DNA of 12,361 bases from Deltaproteobacteria bacterium (lineage in GTDB: Bacteria; Desulfobacterota; B13-G15), in NCBI GenBank assembly GCA_003646705.1, contig QMLK01000011.1, positions 1 to 12,361 on the forward strand, read 5' to 3'. This document shows positions 6,302 to 12,361 of this stretch, one piece after another. Every line of letters starts with the position of its first letter. Position 1 is the first letter of the stretch. Below the pieces are notes generated by a model, which was given only the letters and a program-made list of their open reading frames with translations, had not been told where the DNA came from and made no database searches. The position numbers and the translations under genes are program-made.

Positions 6302-6894
6302 CTGGCCAGCAGTTCGAGGATTCGCTCTGCAAAGGCCCTGGCCGCCTGGGGACCGTTGGCGGTCACCACCCGGCCGTCCACCTCTACCGCCTTCGCCGTG
6401 TAAGAGGCCCCAAGGGCCGCGAGGGTCCTGCCCTCTGAGGGCCAGACAGTGGCCCTTTTGCCCTCCAGTACGCCGGCCTTGGCGAGGATGACCGGGGCGA
6501 TGCAGATGGCCCCCACCACCTTCCCCTGAGAGTAAGCCTCCTTGGCGATCCGCAAGGCCTCCGGGTGGGAGAAGTAGACCTGTGCCCCTATGCCCCCTAC
6601 GAAGATCACGGCCTCATAACGGGCCACATCAACCTCTCGGAGGGAGAGGTCGGGCTCGACCCGTAGGCCGAGCATCCCCCGGGCCTCCCCCCTCTTGGAC
6701 GAGGCCACCTCCACCACGAGGCCCTTGGACTCGAAGAGCTCCTTGGGCACCTTCAGCTCCTCGTCCCTGAACCCCTCAGGGGCGATGATCATGAGGACCT
6801 TGGCCGTAGAGGCCCCTGAGATCGCCCAAAGGCAAAGGAGCAGAAGGGCCAAGAAGAGGCCCCTCCCTCCCTTCAAGGACCCTCTCTTCAACAC
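6298..6894 (-). CDS. Exported DJ-1/PfpI-family protein
   Basis: The 198-residue protein starts with a basic stretch (MLKRGSLKGGRG) and a hydrophobic run (LFLALLLLCLWAISG). This is a likely signal peptide with cleavage near GAST-AKV, or otherwise a membrane anchor. The rest is a DJ-1/PfpI fold: APEGFRDEEL with conserved Glu46 (equivalent to Glu18 of human DJ-1), then VIFVGGIGA, and the nucleophile elbow GAICIAPVILAKAGVL with Cys131. The family includes glyoxalase III-like hydratases, deglycase-reported proteins, proteases and chaperones; no His of a clear catalytic triad follows the Cys, so the activity cannot be named. The GTG start at 6894 is well supported by GGAGG seven bases upstream, inside the end of greA (7-nt overlap). 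Most family members are cytosolic, so export is unusual. Confidence 0.85.
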   Translation of the reverse strand: MLKRGSLKGGRGLFLALLLLCLWAISGASTAKVLMIIAPEGFRDEELKVPKELFESKGLVVEVASSKRGEARGMLGLRVEPDLSLREVDVARYEAVIFVGGIGAQVYFSHPEALRIAKEAYSQGKVVGAICIAPVILAKAGVLEGKRATVWPSEGRTLAALGASYTAKAVEVDGRVVTANGPQAARAFAERILELLAR

Positions 6895-7358
6895 GCCCTC
6901 ACCTCCAGGATGAGGTAACGCCTCTTGCCCGCGGGGACCTCCACCTCCACCTCCTGGCCCTCCTCCTTCCCCACGAGGGCCTTGGCCACAGGGGAGTGGA
7001 TGGAGATCTTGCCCTGGGGGGGGTCGGCCTCATCGCCACCCACGAGCTGGTACTCGAGGACTCGGTCGTTGTCCAAGTCCTTCAGCTTCACCTTGCAACC
7101 GAAGGAGACCCGCCCCTCCTCGGGGACCTGTTCCACCACCACGGCCCTGGCCAGCTTCTCCTCCAGCTCCTTGATCTTGGCCTCGATGAAGGCCTGTCGC
7201 TCCTTGGCGGCCTCGTATTCGGCGTTCTCGGAGAGATCGCCGAAGGCCCTGGCCCGCTCTATCTCGGCGATTATGCGGGGTCGCTCCTCCTTCTTCAGAC
7301 GTTCAAGCTCCCTCTTCAGACTTTGATAACCCTCTTTGGTGATGGGAAAGGTCTCCAT
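6888..7358 (-). CDS. greA: Transcription elongation factor GreA
   Basis: With the ATG at 7358 the product has 156 residues, the normal GreA length. The N-terminal coiled coil begins METFPITKEGYQSLKREL and carries the tip loop DLSENAEYEAAKERQ, with Asp41 and Glu44 at the same numbers as the acidic pair in E. coli GreA that enters the RNA polymerase secondary channel. The C-terminal FKBP-like domain includes KISIHSPVAKALVGK and ends VEVPAGKRRYLILEV. GreA stimulates transcript cleavage in backtracked polymerase. A longer frame opens with TTG at 7388, but that codon lies upstream of the expected transcription start. The ATG at 7358 has GGAG at 7 nt spacing, so the shorter form is preferred. It is the first gene of the minus-strand operon; its last bases contain the ribosome-binding site and start of the next gene. 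Confidence 0.96.
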   Translation of the reverse strand: METFPITKEGYQSLKRELERLKKEERPRIIAEIERARAFGDLSENAEYEAAKERQAFIEAKIKELEEKLARAVVVEQVPEEGRVSFGCKVKLKDLDNDRVLEYQLVGGDEADPPQGKISIHSPVAKALVGKEEGQEVEVEVPAGKRRYLILEVRAC

Positions 7359-7388
7359 CTCCCTTCTCCGGAGGCTGAAATTTGCCAA

Positions 7389-7520: not shown

Positions 7521-7574
7521 TTGACAATCCCTACCCTTTGGGTTTTTCTAAAAGAGTACAAATTTCAGTATAAA
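7521..7574 (+). promoter_or_regulatory. Possible livJ promoter elements (unresolved)
   Basis: Two partial signals precede livJ. A perfect TTGACA lies at 7521-7526, but no good -10 follows at 16-18 nt. A good -10-like TATAAA lies at 7569-7574 without a convincing -35; it is kept in the second copy of this leader (12190-12195). Use of TATAAA would start transcription near 7581, leaving little more than the ribosome-binding site ahead of the ATG. The AATTT/AAATT arms at 7561-7565 and 7572-7576 flank it. I cannot decide between these, and an activator-dependent promoter is possible. Confidence 0.25.
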
Positions 7575-7637
7575 TTAAAGGAGGGAGGTCATGAAGCGAG
7601 TGATAAGGGGGCTTTTGGTAGTGGGGTTGGCGGTGTT
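7549..7637 (+). repeat. Direct repeat, copy 1: leader, RBS and signal-peptide start of livJ
   Basis: This stretch runs from TAAAAGAG through the ribosome-binding site AAGGAGGGAGG and the first 47 coding bases of livJ. It matches 12170-12263 upstream of and into the TRAP binding-protein gene. By hand alignment about 84 positions are identical. In the last 60 bases (7578-7637) there is a single mismatch, A versus G at 7603. Differences upstream are TACA versus CATA at 7557-7560 and a TA versus AAAACGT replacement at 7576-7577, which makes the other copy 5 bases longer. Sequence similarity stops at both ends, so the unit is sharply bounded. Confidence 0.95.
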
Positions 7638-8817
7638 TATGGTCAGCGGCTGGGCTATTGCTAAGGAGCCCATAAAAATTGGTATGCTTGCTGACAAAAC
7701 TGGTGGCCTAGCCGCCTATGGCTATTCTCACGAGAAGGTCCTCAAAGCGGCCGTGAAGAAGATCAATGAAGAGGGAGGGATAGTCGGAAGGCCTGTAAGG
7801 CTTTATGTAGAAGACACCGAGAGCAAGCCTTCTGTAGGTGCCCTCAAGTTCAGGAAGCTAGTCGAGACTCATGGGGTGGACTTCGTCATTGATTCGAACA
7901 GCTCTGGTATAGCCATCGCTTGTGCTCCTGTGGCCAAAGAGTTGAAGACTCCTTACTTTCCCTCTGCGGGGGCCACGGAGATCTCGGGTGAGAAGGGAAA
8001 CCGGTATGTCTTTCAGCCCTGTACGAATGTGCGCGAGGAGTGCAAAGGGGCCGCGTCCTTTGCGGTGAAGAACATCGCTAAGAAGTGGGTAACAGTTGTG
8101 GTCAACTACGCTTGGGGTTGGTCCAACGAGAAGGAGTTCAAGAAATATGTTGAGCAAAAGGGCGGCAAGGTGCTCAAATCTATCAGGGTGCCCCTTGGGA
8201 CCAGCGATTGGCTACCCTATCTGAGAAAGATCCCGAGGGAGGCAGAAGCGGTCTACTTTGCCAACTTTGGCTCAGACTTCCTCTCCTTTATAAGGGACCT
8301 TTACGCAGTGCGTCCAGATATTAAGAAGTTGGGAGCTGTTTATGTACTCTCAGCTCAAGATCCTGCGAAACTCGGCCCGGCAGGCGAAGGGCTTTATTGC
8401 ATCACTTCCTATCCAACCCGTCTTGAAGGGCTGAATACCGAGTATAACCGGAAATATCGTAGTTTGATTGGTGTGGATCCCGAGGGACTCGAAATAGGAA
8501 TTGGGAAACGTTTCGTTTTGGCCTACGACTGGGCCGTGTGGGAATCCATGTTCCTAATCAAAGCCGCTATAGAGAGAAGTGGTTGGCGCTCACGGAAGGA
8601 CACCTCAAAGGTGATCGAGGCATTAGAAGGGATGAAGTTCAAGGAAAGTGTGGAATTTCCCCAGGGAAGTGGGTACATCCGGGCAGAGGACCATCTTGCC
8701 ATCGTCGATCTATACATCGAACAGATTGTGGGTGGTAAGTTGAAAGTCGCGGCACGGATTCCTGCGGCCAAAGGAGCCTATCCACCGATCGTGGATCGCA
8801 CCAAAGAATCCTTCTGA
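7591..8817 (+). CDS. livJ: Liv-type ABC importer periplasmic binding protein
   Basis: The 408-residue protein has a Sec signal peptide (MKRVIRGLLVVGLAV..., cleavage probably after AIA near residue 24; no lipobox Cys). A Peripla_BP_6/LivJ-type domain follows: EPIKIGMLADKTGGLAAYG, INEEGGIVGRPVRLYVED, the hinge-crossing region with FPSAGATEIS, and a C-terminal FPQGSGYIRAEDHLAIVDLYI block typical of the branched-chain amino acid/amide (HAAT) group. It would capture the substrate in the periplasm and deliver it to LivHM. The substrate cannot be read from the sequence; branched-chain amino acids, amides or aromatic acids are all possible for this family. The mature protein has four Cys (111, 144, 151, 270), which could form disulfides. 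The ATG has the strong RBS AAAGGAGGGAGG. The signal-peptide DNA is part of the duplicated leader; the remainder has lower GC than the minus-strand genes. Confidence 0.95.
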   Translation: MKRVIRGLLVVGLAVFMVSGWAIAKEPIKIGMLADKTGGLAAYGYSHEKVLKAAVKKINEEGGIVGRPVRLYVEDTESKPSVGALKFRKLVETHGVDFVIDSNSSGIAIACAPVAKELKTPYFPSAGATEISGEKGNRYVFQPCTNVREECKGAASFAVKNIAKKWVTVVVNYAWGWSNEKEFKKYVEQKGGKVLKSIRVPLGTSDWLPYLRKIPREAEAVYFANFGSDFLSFIRDLYAVRPDIKKLGAVYVLSAQDPAKLGPAGEGLYCITSYPTRLEGLNTEYNRKYRSLIGVDPEGLEIGIGKRFVLAYDWAVWESMFLIKAAIERSGWRSRKDTSKVIEALEGMKFKESVEFPQGSGYIRAEDHLAIVDLYIEQIVGGKLKVAARIPAAKGAYPPIVDRTKESF

Positions 8818-8827
8818 GGAAGAGGCC

Positions 8828-9700
8828 TTGGCCTCAGAGGTTGCCTCTGCGCTCCTCTTTTACCTGGTCAATGGGCTCATATGGGGGCTTATTATTGCCC
8901 TCATTGCTTTGGGACTATCTTTTATCTTCGGGGTCATGGGCATCGTAAACATGGCCCATGGCGACCTTTACATGCTAGGGGCGGTTTTCGCTTACTGGAT
9001 ATTTTCCGCCCTGGGTAACTTCTGGTTAAGCCTCTTGATAGTCCCTGTGGCTATTGGACTCCTTGCAGCCCCCACAGAGCGGTTGATTTTGAGGCCCTTC
9101 GAAGGACATCCGGCGGTTACCATGATCGCCACCGCAGGACTCTCCTTCATACTCCAACAGCTCGTGTTGATGACTTATGGTGGAGTTCCCAAAGAACTCC
9201 CCATGCCCCTTCAGGGGAGCTTCGATTTTCTGGGAGTTGCCTATCCCCTTTATCGTCTTTTCATCGCTGCTCTATCTCTGGTGATCATTGCTTCGGTTTG
9301 GCTCTTCCTACACCGGACTGACTATGGGATCCTCGTCAGAGCCTCTATGCAGGACAAAGAAATTGCCAGCGCCATGGGGATCAACGTCAATACAGTGCTC
9401 GTTTTTACCTTTGTTTTGGGTTGTGTCCTGGCGGCTGTGGGGGGAGTGCTGGCAGCTCCTGTTACCCAGGTCTTCTACCTCATGGGTAATGACGTTATCC
9501 TGCTCTGTTTCATCGTGGTTATCATCGGAGGGCTTGGCAGCCTGGGCGGCACCCTGGTGGCTGCTCTTGTCCTTGGGGGGGTGGAGGGGCTGTTAGCTTA
9601 TTTCCTCAGCCCCACCGGGGCAAGAGCAGCCGTTTTTGCCTTTATGGTCGGAGTGCTCATCCTTCGCCCTCAAGGGCTTTTCGGCACACAAAGGGGTTAG
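8828..9700 (+). CDS. livH: Liv-type ABC importer permease LivH
   Basis: The 290-residue inner-membrane permease has about eight hydrophobic segments and the LivH hallmarks: FGVMGIVNMAHGDL (34-47), PTERLILRPFEGHP, the ATPase-contact loop ASMQDKEIASAMGIN (172-186) and IIGGLGSLGGT (232-242), ending LRPQGLFG. It pairs with LivM to form the membrane channel. The start is TTG at 8828, since no in-frame ATG or GTG occurs before the first conserved motif. AGGA lies seven bases upstream of the TTG, directly after the livJ stop, which supports this choice. The gap from livJ is 10 nt. A rare start codon could lower its translation relative to livJ. Confidence 0.95.
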   Translation: MASEVASALLFYLVNGLIWGLIIALIALGLSFIFGVMGIVNMAHGDLYMLGAVFAYWIFSALGNFWLSLLIVPVAIGLLAAPTERLILRPFEGHPAVTMIATAGLSFILQQLVLMTYGGVPKELPMPLQGSFDFLGVAYPLYRLFIAALSLVIIASVWLFLHRTDYGILVRASMQDKEIASAMGINVNTVLVFTFVLGCVLAAVGGVLAAPVTQVFYLMGNDVILLCFIVVIIGGLGSLGGTLVAALVLGGVEGLLAYFLSPTGARAAVFAFMVGVLILRPQGLFGTQRG

Positions 9701-9703
9701 TCC

Positions 9704-10657
9704 ATGCCCTCACGCGGAGGTTCTCAGTCCAGGAAGGCTGTCCTGCAGAGATGGATGTTGTTTGGCTTTTTCATCCTTACGGTTCTGGGGGTTCTCATGC
9801 CAAGGGGTCCCCGTAGCTTAGCCATGCAGACCATGGCTTTTTGTATCTTCGCCATGGCTTACGACCTCTGCTTCGGCTACACGAACCAATGCAGTCTAGG
9901 CCATTCGGTCTTCTTCGGGGTGGGGGCCTACGGCGTGGTGTTGTCGTTGTTGCATCTTCAAAGTGGCATTCTTCTGGGGCTTCTAATCGCTTTTGTGGCT
10001 GGTATGGTGGTGGCCTTTTTAATGGGCAGCATATGTGTACGTCTCACCGAGGCCTATTTCGTCATAGTTACTGCTCTCTTTTCGGCCATCTTTCACCTAT
10101 TGTCCCTTGATATGACATGGTTGACTGGCGGAGATGATGGGTTGTCTGTTACCCTGCCCGATATCTCTGTAGGTGGAGTCCGCCTTTCCCTCTACGACCC
10201 TATGACAAATTACTATTTCATTCTGGTTTTTTTTCTTGCTAGCTACCTCCTGATGAGGCGAATCACTGAGGCCCCGCTGGGGAAGGTCTTCATATCCATC
10301 AGAGAGAATGAGAAGAGGGCTGCCTTCTTGGGATACGACCCCTTCAGGTACAAACTCGCGGCGTTTGTCCTTTCAGGTGCCTTTACTGCTCTGGCAGGAT
10401 CAATCTACGCCCTCACCCTTCGTTATGCGACGGCAGACCTCTTCGGCCTCTACTGGTCGATCATCCCCATAGTGTGGTGTTTGATAGGAGGAGTAGGGAC
10501 GCTAGTGGGGCCTTGCATCGGAGTAGCGTTAATGTTCTTCTTCCAGTACTATGTGAGCGCTTGGTGGACCCACTATCTAATTCTCTTCGGCGTTCTCATT
10601 TTGGTAATCTTGCGGACTTCACGGAAGGGACTGTTGGGTTATCTCCTGGGAAGGTAG
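9704..10657 (+). CDS. livM: Liv-type ABC importer permease LivM
   Basis: The 317-residue permease has a short basic N-terminal tail and about eight to nine hydrophobic segments. LivM motifs are SLGHSVFFGVGAYG (64-77), TGGDDGL (141-147), the cytoplasmic coupling segment IRENEKRAAFLGYD (199-212) followed by FRYKLAAFVLSGAFTALAGS, and IGGVGTLVGP (261-270). The residues before SLGH read YTNQC, whereas GQL/GQV is more usual. The start codon lies 3 nt after the livH stop, with AAGGGG upstream as a ribosome-binding site. It forms the transmembrane pair with LivH and docks to the LivG/LivF ATPases. Confidence 0.95.
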   Translation: MPSRGGSQSRKAVLQRWMLFGFFILTVLGVLMPRGPRSLAMQTMAFCIFAMAYDLCFGYTNQCSLGHSVFFGVGAYGVVLSLLHLQSGILLGLLIAFVAGMVVAFLMGSICVRLTEAYFVIVTALFSAIFHLLSLDMTWLTGGDDGLSVTLPDISVGGVRLSLYDPMTNYYFILVFFLASYLLMRRITEAPLGKVFISIRENEKRAAFLGYDPFRYKLAAFVLSGAFTALAGSIYALTLRYATADLFGLYWSIIPIVWCLIGGVGTLVGPCIGVALMFFFQYYVSAWWTHYLILFGVLILVILRTSRKGLLGYLLGR

Positions 10658-11395
10658 ATGGCGATCTTAGAAGTGAGGGAGATCACGAAGAACTTTGGCG
10701 GCCTTACGGCTCTGAAGGATGTTTGCTTGTCGGTTCAAGAGGGAGAGCTTCGGGGTATCATTGGTCCCAACGGGGCGGGAAAGACCACGCTGTTCAACGT
10801 CATCTCCGGCGATCTTAAACCGACTGGAGGAAAGGTTTACCTCCAGGGTGAAGACATAACGGGCCTCCCCCCACATAAAATATGTAAGAAGGGATTGGGT
10901 AGGACTTTCCAGCTCACTATGGTCTTTCCGGAGTTAACAGTCTATGAAAGCATCTGGGTGGGAATAAATTCCAGGAAGGAAAAGCCCTGGGATCCCTTTC
11001 GATCCTTCGAGAAGGATTCCGATGTATCGGAACGGGCCGAGGAACTGTGCCGTATAGTAGGGCTTTACGAGAAACGAGACGAACTAGCATCTAACCTCTC
11101 CTATGGAGATCAGAAGGCCCTGGAGATTGCAATGGCTTTGAGTACAGATCCTGCGGTCCTGCTTTTAGATGAACCAACCCAGGGAGTGAGCCCCAAAGAG
11201 GCAGAGGGGCTAATCGAACTGATCGTCGAGTTGTCGAAGCGGATGACTATAGTCCTGATAGAGCACAGCGTTGACGTCGTGCTAAGGCTCTGCCACAAGG
11301 TGACAGTACTAAACGAGGGACGGGTGATCGCTGAAGGTAGCCCTGAGGAGATCAGTCGTAACAAGGAGGTTCAAAGGATCTACCTAGGGACCTAA
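10658..11395 (+). CDS. livG: Liv-type ABC importer ATPase LivG
   Basis: The 245-residue ABC ATPase has Walker A GPNGAGKT (36-43), Q-loop Gln85 in GRTFQLTMVFPELTV, signature LSYGD (147-151), Walker B VLLLDEPT (167-174) with catalytic Glu172, and the H-loop His203 in LIEHSVDVV. It ends with IYLGT, typical of LivG. The signature region reads LSYGDQKALEIAMAL, a variant seen in amide/aromatic-type Liv operons as well as amino acid ones. The start codon directly follows the livM stop with no gap (TAGATG), and GGAAGG lies just upstream. It forms the nucleotide-binding pair with LivF. Confidence 0.96.
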   Translation: MAILEVREITKNFGGLTALKDVCLSVQEGELRGIIGPNGAGKTTLFNVISGDLKPTGGKVYLQGEDITGLPPHKICKKGLGRTFQLTMVFPELTVYESIWVGINSRKEKPWDPFRSFEKDSDVSERAEELCRIVGLYEKRDELASNLSYGDQKALEIAMALSTDPAVLLLDEPTQGVSPKEAEGLIELIVELSKRMTIVLIEHSVDVVLRLCHKVTVLNEGRVIAEGSPEEISRNKEVQRIYLGT

Positions 11396-11397
11396 CG

Positions 11398-12102
11398 GTG
11401 GCGCTACTTGAGGCACAAGAGGTTCATGCCTTTTACGGTAGAAGCTATGTCCTACAAGGGGTGTCCATCACAGTTCAAGAAGGGGAGGTGGTGGCTCTCC
11501 TCGGCAGGAATGGCGCGGGGAAGACCACCTTCCTGAAAACAATCATGGGGCTGGTGAGAGCATGCCAAGGGCGGGTTATTCTAGACGGTGTCGATATCAC
11601 TGCTCTTCCCTCCTATCGCATAGCTCGGCTTGGGATCGGCTACGTCCCCCAGGGAAGAGGGCTCTTCCCGGAGTTGACGGTTTTGGAGAACCTGAAGACG
11701 GGGATGCGTGACCGTAGGGATAAAGGGAGCCTTGAAAGGGTTCTTGACCTTTTTCCCCTCCTCCGGGACCGGCTGGGCCAGAAGGCCGGTACACTGAGCG
11801 GGGGGGAACAGCAGGCTCTGGCCATTGCTAGGACTCTTTTGCAGAAGCCACGCATCCTTTTGCTCGACGAGCCCACAACCGGCCTGATGCCCCTCATCGT
11901 AGAACGGTTGAAGGAGGTCATCCGTGAACTCAACAGCCGCGGTATGGCCATTCTGCTGGTGGAGGAAAAAGTTCCCTTTGCCCTCTCTCTGGCCCACCGT
12001 GTCTACTTCATGGTGAAGGGAAAGATGACCTTCAGCGCTCCCAAGGAAGAGGTAGCCAGTAGAGAGGACATCCTCCTTAAGTATCTCGGTGTACAGGGTT
12101 GA
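11398..12102 (+). CDS. livF: Liv-type ABC importer ATPase LivF
   Basis: The 234-residue ABC ATPase has Walker A GRNGAGKT (36-43), Q-loop Gln85 in GYVPQGRGLFPELTVLENL (the LivF hallmark), signature LSGGE (133-137) and Walker B ILLLDEPT with catalytic Glu158. The H-loop reads LLVEEKVPFAL, with Glu190 where LivF proteins usually have Gln (VEQN) and most ABC ATPases have His. LivG keeps its His, so one composite site remains canonical. The start is GTG at 11398, 2 nt after the livG stop, with a weak AGGGA ribosome-binding site. It is the last gene of the operon; no clear intrinsic terminator follows. Confidence 0.95.
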   Translation: MALLEAQEVHAFYGRSYVLQGVSITVQEGEVVALLGRNGAGKTTFLKTIMGLVRACQGRVILDGVDITALPSYRIARLGIGYVPQGRGLFPELTVLENLKTGMRDRRDKGSLERVLDLFPLLRDRLGQKAGTLSGGEQQALAIARTLLQKPRILLLDEPTTGLMPLIVERLKEVIRELNSRGMAILLVEEKVPFALSLAHRVYFMVKGKMTFSAPKEEVASREDILLKYLGVQG

Positions 12103-12116
12103 GGATACCTAAAATG

Positions 12117-12173
12117 TTTCAAAAAAGTCCTTGAAAAAATGTCCCTATATATGTTTAAGTAAACTTAAGTAAA
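12117..12173 (+). promoter_or_regulatory. AT-rich spacer with inverted and direct repeats before the TRAP gene
   Basis: The 114-base gap between livF and the next gene contains a perfect 6-bp inverted repeat, TTTCAA (12117-12122) and TTGAAA (12131-12136), 8 nt apart. Further on is a tandem TTAAGTAAA at 12155-12163 and 12165-12173, with a 10-base period, and the palindrome ACTTAAGT (12163-12170). TTGAAA could also serve as a -35, with TTTAAG at 12154-12159 as a 4/6 -10 at 17 nt spacing. The inverted repeat has no T-run after it on the plus strand, so it does not look like a terminator. The helical-turn spacing of the repeats suggests a regulator site, but this is a guess. Confidence 0.3.
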
Positions 12174-12263
12174 AGAGCATAAATTTCAGTATAAATAAAA
12201 CGTAAGGAGGGAGGTCATGAAGCGAGTGGTAAGGGGGCTTTTGGTAGTGGGGTTGGCGGTGTT
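12170..12263 (+). repeat. Direct repeat, copy 2: leader, RBS and signal-peptide start of the TRAP binding protein
   Basis: This is the second copy of the leader module at 7549-7637, in the same orientation and 4.6 kb downstream. It contains AATTTCAGTATAAAT, the ribosome-binding site AAGGAGGGAGG and the first 47 coding bases (12217-12263) of the following gene. It differs by a 5-base net insertion ahead of the RBS and three substitutions. Together the copies bracket livJHMGF. Confidence 0.95.
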
Positions 12264-12361
12264 GTTCTGCCTGGCCTCTGGCGGGCAGGCTGTGGCCGCG
12301 GGCAAGACCATGCACATCAAGTTCAGCACCTGGCACCCGCCGGCGAGCCGTGAGGTCAAGA
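12217..12361 (+). CDS. dctP: TRAP-type transporter substrate-binding protein (DctP family), N-terminal part
   Basis: The first 48 codons are present; the gene continues past the right edge. The product starts with a signal peptide MKRVVRGLLVVGLAVLF... (cleavage probably after AVAA or nearby). The mature start is KTMHIKFSTWHPPASREVK, the characteristic first beta strand of DctP-type TRAP binding proteins (IKFS.WHPP). Such proteins bind C4-dicarboxylates, other organic acids or related anions and work with DctQ/DctM membrane subunits using an ion gradient; those genes would be expected just downstream. The first 47 coding bases copy those of livJ, but the codons after the signal-peptide core are GC-rich and unrelated to livJ. 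The ATG has the strong RBS AAGGAGGGAGG. Confidence 0.85.
   Translation, partial: MKRVVRGLLVVGLAVLFCLASGGQAVAAGKTMHIKFSTWHPPASREVK

Follow-up and report, generated by a model that had tools for sequence, protein, structure and literature searches.

Why do two non-homologous genes of one genome, each for a putative periplasmic binding protein, begin with nearly the same DNA? The question is raised by a stretch of 12,361 nucleotides (nt), hereafter the window, from a metagenome-assembled genome (MAG) of a Deltaproteobacteria bacterium (GenBank assembly GCA_003646705.1, contig QMLK01000011.1, forward strand). In this window, the leader, the ribosome-binding site and the beginning of the signal-peptide sequence of a livJ-like gene recur in front of a gene for a TRAP-type binding protein. 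With a probability of roughly 55%, we favor as explanation a single, lineage-specific and local duplication-and-fusion event at the junction of the liv and TRAP genes, by which one gene would have received the start region of the other. The two copies, named unit A and unit B, consist of the following parts, in which the signal-peptide regions were assigned by eye:

7549..7590, + strand: unit A, non-coding part; livJ leader with its ribosome-binding site (GGAGGGAGG) (repeat search, alignment)
7591..7637, + strand: unit A, coding part; 47 bases from the livJ start codon on, with the signal-peptide start and most of its hydrophobic core (MKRVIRGLLVVGLAV...)
12170..12216, + strand: unit B, non-coding part; TRAP-gene leader with its ribosome-binding site (repeat search, alignment)
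12217..12263, + strand: unit B, coding part; 47 bases from the TRAP start codon on (MKRVVRGLLVVGLAV...)

The repeat of 7549-7637 and 12170-12263 is genuine. A repeat search of the window recovered a 60-nt core pair (7578-7637 and 12204-12263, 98% identity, one mismatch) and a leader pair (7549-7579 and 12170-12200, 31 nt, 90% identity). BLAST against the MAG itself aligned the whole of 7549-7637 to 12170-12263 at 90% identity with an E value of 9.2e-32, which rules out chance as the source of the likeness. Overall, units A and B are separated by four substitutions and by one 5-nt gap directly upstream of the ribosome-binding site. Two of the first 16 codons differ between livJ and the TRAP gene, namely ATA/GTA within the unit and TTT/TTG at its border, where the third base of the codon is the first base beyond the unit; synonymous differences within the unit number zero. 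These results confirmed two claims of an earlier note on this DNA, that the leader, ribosome-binding site and signal-peptide DNA are nearly identical, with one difference in 60 bases, and that synonymous third positions are conserved as well. At its 3' edge, the likeness ends within the hydrophobic core of the signal peptide, and at its 5' edge it ends 42 nt (A) or 47 nt (B) upstream of the start codon. The 70 nt upstream of A and of B are weakly similar (6 of 300 shuffles equally good), and the 70 nt downstream show no clear likeness (38 of 300). A near-identical upstream region thus precedes two non-homologous genes of the same genome, as expression-module capture requires.

The plus strand carries livJHMGF-like genes (7591-12102), which begin within unit A, and the first 48 codons of the TRAP binding-protein gene (from 12217), which is this short because the contig ends at 12361. 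The TRAP fragment has no Pfam match of its own. Its N-terminus matches three DctP genes in relatives (G001:C157, G002:C3 and G007:C181), which shows that the TRAP label, already proposed in the earlier note, is right. No other contig of the MAG gave a convincing match to the last 98 nt (next E value 0.77), and a truncated DctP gene on contig C180, considered as the missing part of the TRAP gene, was rejected, being 28% identical to the same-family TRAP relative. The remaining features of this region are:

7591..8817, + strand: livJ-like periplasmic binding protein of 408 amino acids, Peripla_BP_6 (E 2e-61; Pfam)
8828..12102, + strand: livHMGF-like genes, two for BPD_transp_2 permeases and two for ABC ATPases, with a GC content at third codon positions (GC3) of 0.60-0.65 (Pfam, composition)
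12103..12169, + strand: AT-rich spacer between livF and unit B, 27% GC (composition, alignment)
12264..12361, + strand: TRAP DctP-type gene past unit B, as far as the contig end; unrepeated, 67% GC, GC3 0.906

The operon is similar to those of urea (Urt) and leucine (Liv) transporters. The NCBIfam models for these, however, scored it below their cut-offs and the binding protein far below, and "livJ" is used here as a label only.

Units A and B sit at the two borders of the low-GC livJHMGF operon. The GC content is 0.60-0.67 in the left half of the window, falls to 0.50-0.52 over livJ and then stays at 0.50-0.58 up to position 12000. The GC3 is 0.811-0.849 in five left-hand genes, drops to 0.582-0.65 across the five liv genes and rises to 0.906 in the TRAP gene beyond the unit (32 codons), the operon forming a low-GC3 island amid high-GC3 genes. 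The median GC3 was 0.82 for 312 open reading frames (ORFs) of at least 200 amino acids on 47 other contigs, a set chosen by this length rule and possibly including spurious ones. Depending on which liv gene is taken for comparison, 3.8-14% of these ORFs are equally low in GC3, and a run of five such genes therefore looks unusual. The position of the two copies on either side of an operon that differs in composition suggests a local rearrangement at the operon junction. The composition contrast, together with the lack of a livJ match at E ≤1e-80 in any of 19 relatives, suggests that the livJHMGF-like operon may have been acquired horizontally.

The relatives of both genes carry other start regions. 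At least 448 livJ homologues were found, and 22 of the 120 listed were aligned. The best livJ relative found, L070 (81% at the amino-acid level), comes from a MAG labelled Aquificota and has the same gene order with another leader and signal peptide; the signal peptides of L070 and of 20 further homologues differ from the unit, with at most short generic pieces in common, such as an MKR start. Relatives of the TRAP N-terminus were found in 48 of 394 other genomes of the phylum, one of them in the same family. Six TRAP relatives were inspected, and the five with a readable start are all unlike the unit. An XRE-type-looking gene, so labelled by eye and presumably encoding a regulator, adjoins the TRAP gene in five of these six (L110, L111, L112, L113 and L114; on the opposite strand in L113), and the window shows no such gene in the interval from livF to the TRAP gene.

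At the level of loci, the 10 closest of 14 livJ loci obtained were compared, along with 21 TRAP loci from 16 genomes. BLAST of units A and B against these loci returned nothing better than an E value of 0.7. No match to the TRAP set was present in the 10 livJ loci, only three of which extend more than 1 kb past livF, and no liv protein match was present in the 21 TRAP loci, most of which span about 3 kb. A relative with both the livJ and the TRAP gene was not found among the 19 relatives and the 31 loci compared. The unit is missing from the examined relatives of either gene, as a derived state produced by expression-module capture requires, and the liv/TRAP adjacency and the common unit appear, as far as tested, peculiar to this lineage.

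These observations could be explained as follows. A livJHMGF-type operon of foreign-looking composition would have ended up immediately upstream of a DctP-type (TRAP) gene. An event at the junction, either a tandem duplication followed by the loss of one part or a fusion by deletion, could then have placed the leader, the ribosome-binding site and the first 47 coding bases of one gene before the other. The breakpoint would fall within the hydrophobic core of the signal peptide, and the in-frame hybrid should stay a working export signal. The recipient would thereby gain immediate translation initiation and Sec export, that is, a captured working expression module, which might bring a selective benefit; we predict that the recipient gene would be expressed through the copied unit.

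Several observations weigh against this reconstruction. Low-GC3 genes are also scattered elsewhere in the genome, as seen in the sample of 312 ORFs, the GC3 of the unit itself (0.69-0.75, 16 codons) fits neither side, and the composition of the TRAP gene rests on 98 nt. No intermediate or ancestral arrangement was observed in the relatives examined, in which the adjacency is thinly sampled, given the extents of the livJ and TRAP loci stated above. Clear likeness ends at the 5' edge of the leader (7549 and 12170), and the core promoter may lie outside the copied piece. In addition, the starts of L070 livJ, G001 TRAP and G002 TRAP show no significant likeness to the 47-nt coding part (422, 246 and 58 of 2000 shuffles equally good, respectively), and the donor may be some third gene that the MAG lacks.

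Which gene gave its start region to the other was examined through the same relatives. The whole-unit matches lean weakly to the TRAP gene as the possible donor: for units A and B, 4 of 300 shuffles each were as good against the G001 TRAP start, 9 and 24 of 300 against G002 TRAP, 40 and 108 of 300 against G007 TRAP, and 34 and 104 of 300 against L070 livJ. As the ribosome-binding motif GGAGGGAGG recurs upstream of other genes, such matches say little about the donor and may reflect the motif. When the full signal-peptide DNA of the TRAP gene was aligned, 0 of 2000 shuffles were as good against G001 TRAP and 1 of 2000 against L070 livJ (for G002, the end anchor was missing and a fixed 90 nt was taken). 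Since the full sequence matches both, the test is not specific, and naming the donor by signal-peptide DNA alignment was rejected, the 47-nt unit alone giving no significant match. A microhomology, GGTGTT, at the 3' border was also found within the DNA that encodes the signal peptides of L070 and G001 (joint shuffle frequency 0.005); it was picked after looking and serves as a lead only.

Gene conversion offers another explanation, in which older, weakly related leaders would have been made near-identical by a recent short tract. It agrees with an identity that drops from the 60-nt core, where it is highest (one difference), to the leader (3 of 31 positions and the gap), and with the weak likeness that may extend upstream (6 of 300 shuffles). 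However, the core and the leader do not differ significantly in identity (Fisher p 0.11), and no older homology between livJ and TRAP starts was seen in the relatives examined; we regard gene conversion as possible, with the odds clearly against it.

It is also doubtful that two tandem liv operons once existed here, with the second livJ being deleted and its leader and half signal peptide fused to a resident TRAP gene. The AT-rich spacer does continue into the AT-rich leader of unit B, as if derived from liv DNA, and extra copies occur, as one relative MAG has three livJ loci (L075, L078 and L079). Nevertheless, the sequence from 12263 to the contig end carries no trace of a second livJ.

An assembly artefact, in which the end of a TRAP gene was misjoined to the liv contig via the repeat, would fit a window that is the entire MAG contig C11 and ends 98 nt past unit B, and would fit the shifts of composition at both borders. 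The longest exact run common to units A and B is, however, 34 nt, as compared with exact contig-end overlaps of 104 and 123 nt in the sample (a third overlap measures 133 nt at 99% identity). These overlaps suggest that the assembly words were longer than 34 nt, which makes a misjoin at the repeat unlikely. As the units differ by four substitutions and a gap, both sequences would be present in the sample even with a wrong join.

Small-RNA targets lie in the leader, the ribosome-binding site and the early codons of genes, and the unit spans all three. The leaders could be held alike by selection as a common regulatory site, for example one at which a small RNA or a leader-binding regulator controls the two transporters together. 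We judge this very improbable: no Rfam match was found in the window, the leaders show no stable fold (z -0.99 and 0.42) and there are only two copies. A regulatory RNA in the unit was rejected on the first two of these results. Shared control, which the earlier note put forward on condition that more copies exist, is not borne out by the extent of the repeat either, as clear likeness reaches only about 42 nt (A) or 47 nt (B) upstream of the start codon, beyond which it is weak. No consensus promoter was found near unit A or B; a TTGACA at 7521 and a TTGAAA at 12131 were noted by eye.

Equally far-fetched is a recombination switch, in which a crossover between the direct repeats of about 90 bp would delete the liv operon and let the liv upstream region drive the TRAP gene; if true, the population would alternate between an ABC+TRAP and a TRAP-only state, the TRAP gene changing its promoter while its leader and signal peptide stay unchanged.

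The earlier note had added that, if more copies existed, the unit would represent a modular system for binding proteins, and had proposed a search of this genome and its relatives. The MAG comprises 1,384,932 bases in 270 contigs and is 82.8% complete. In it, BLAST found the unit in two places only, with no third copy and a next match at an E value of 0.38. Nothing better than 0.004 was obtained in 58 relatives and nothing better than 0.003 in the 394 other genomes of the phylum, two overlapping sets, two candidates per genome being scored in the latter; the remaining matches (E values of 0.003 to 1.3, 14-36 nt) were dismissed as chance. Nine other DctP matches are present in the MAG. The eight with a readable start are all unlike the unit in leader and signal peptide, some carrying a generic ribosome-binding motif, and the ninth is the truncated gene on C180.

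A comparison of whole contigs (48 including the window, 34% of the bases) yielded 21 repeats and no third copy of the unit; an example away from gene starts is a repeat of 42 nt at 90% identity between L131 and L145. When 2353 putative start windows of this sample were compared with each other, no other pair of the unit A/B kind was seen among the best 25, which include contig-end overlaps and pairs within longer paralogous alignments. Seven weaker pairs among them, on inspection, proved to be short matches or coding sequence that is conserved. The MAG lacks about 17% of the genome, and a further copy of the unit is therefore possible. Two copies only, and eight of eight other DctP starts that differ, are evidence against a genome-wide modular system, which is not supported. 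From the simplest reading given in the earlier note, we retain the idea that a start module was copied from one binding-protein gene to another, unrelated one and drop, as no further copies were found, its modular extension.

The arrangement resembles several known ones in part. In phase-variable surface-protein families, one start region with its signal sequence serves different mature proteins; here, in contrast, no multi-copy locus, inversion or surface variation was seen. A Schistosoma japonicum gene family with a similar core promoter and signal sequence (PMC3434034) is alike in having a duplicated start region with a signal sequence before different bodies, and unlike in being eukaryotic, in its many dispersed copies and in its tie to repetitive elements. 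Mobile promoters, or promoter propagation (Matus-Garcia et al. 2012, as cited), are outlined as short promoter-like repeats before different genes of one genome. They share with the present case a short start-region sequence repeated before different genes, whereas the two copies found here are close together and reach into coding sequence; a mobile promoter or repeat family would require several dispersed copies, and the 82.8%-complete genome has two.

Transferred genes can become active when a deletion or a tandem duplication lets them capture a promoter, a route that has been described (PMC11111574, PMC5906472), and the copying of existing promoters is called prevalent (PMC5906472). Literature searches turned up papers on promoter copying in general. 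Promoter capture is alike in that illegitimate recombination copies or fuses an existing expression region before another, often transferred, gene. It is unlike in that the piece here comprises a leader, a ribosome-binding site and half a signal peptide, does not clearly include the core promoter, and would have been moved by an event that we infer. The locus appears to be a single case of a known kind of rearrangement, and no new system is revealed. As a naturally occurring example, it may show a transporter gene that took over the translation start of its neighbour and half of its signal peptide, and it suggests that capture breakpoints are possible within the core of the signal peptide, a position that should tolerate in-frame hybrids.

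Some minor observations were made on the MAG and on the rest of the window. Two DctP-containing paralogous regions (L128 8453-11290 and L088 897-3711) share 74% identity along 2.8 kb. Contig-end overlaps of 104-133 nt are found between the end of L128 (C5) and the start of L132 (C9), between the start of L154 (C34) and the end of L163 (C43), and between the start of L126 (C3) and the end of L154 (C34); contigs with such overlapping ends might be neighbours. The minus strand of the window carries smc, gltX and smaller genes, ending with a greA-like gene at 6888-7388 (labels by eye from the translations, and for gltX by sequence comparison). The named sequence closest to this gltX of the host belongs to a MAG labelled Deltaproteobacteria (82%).

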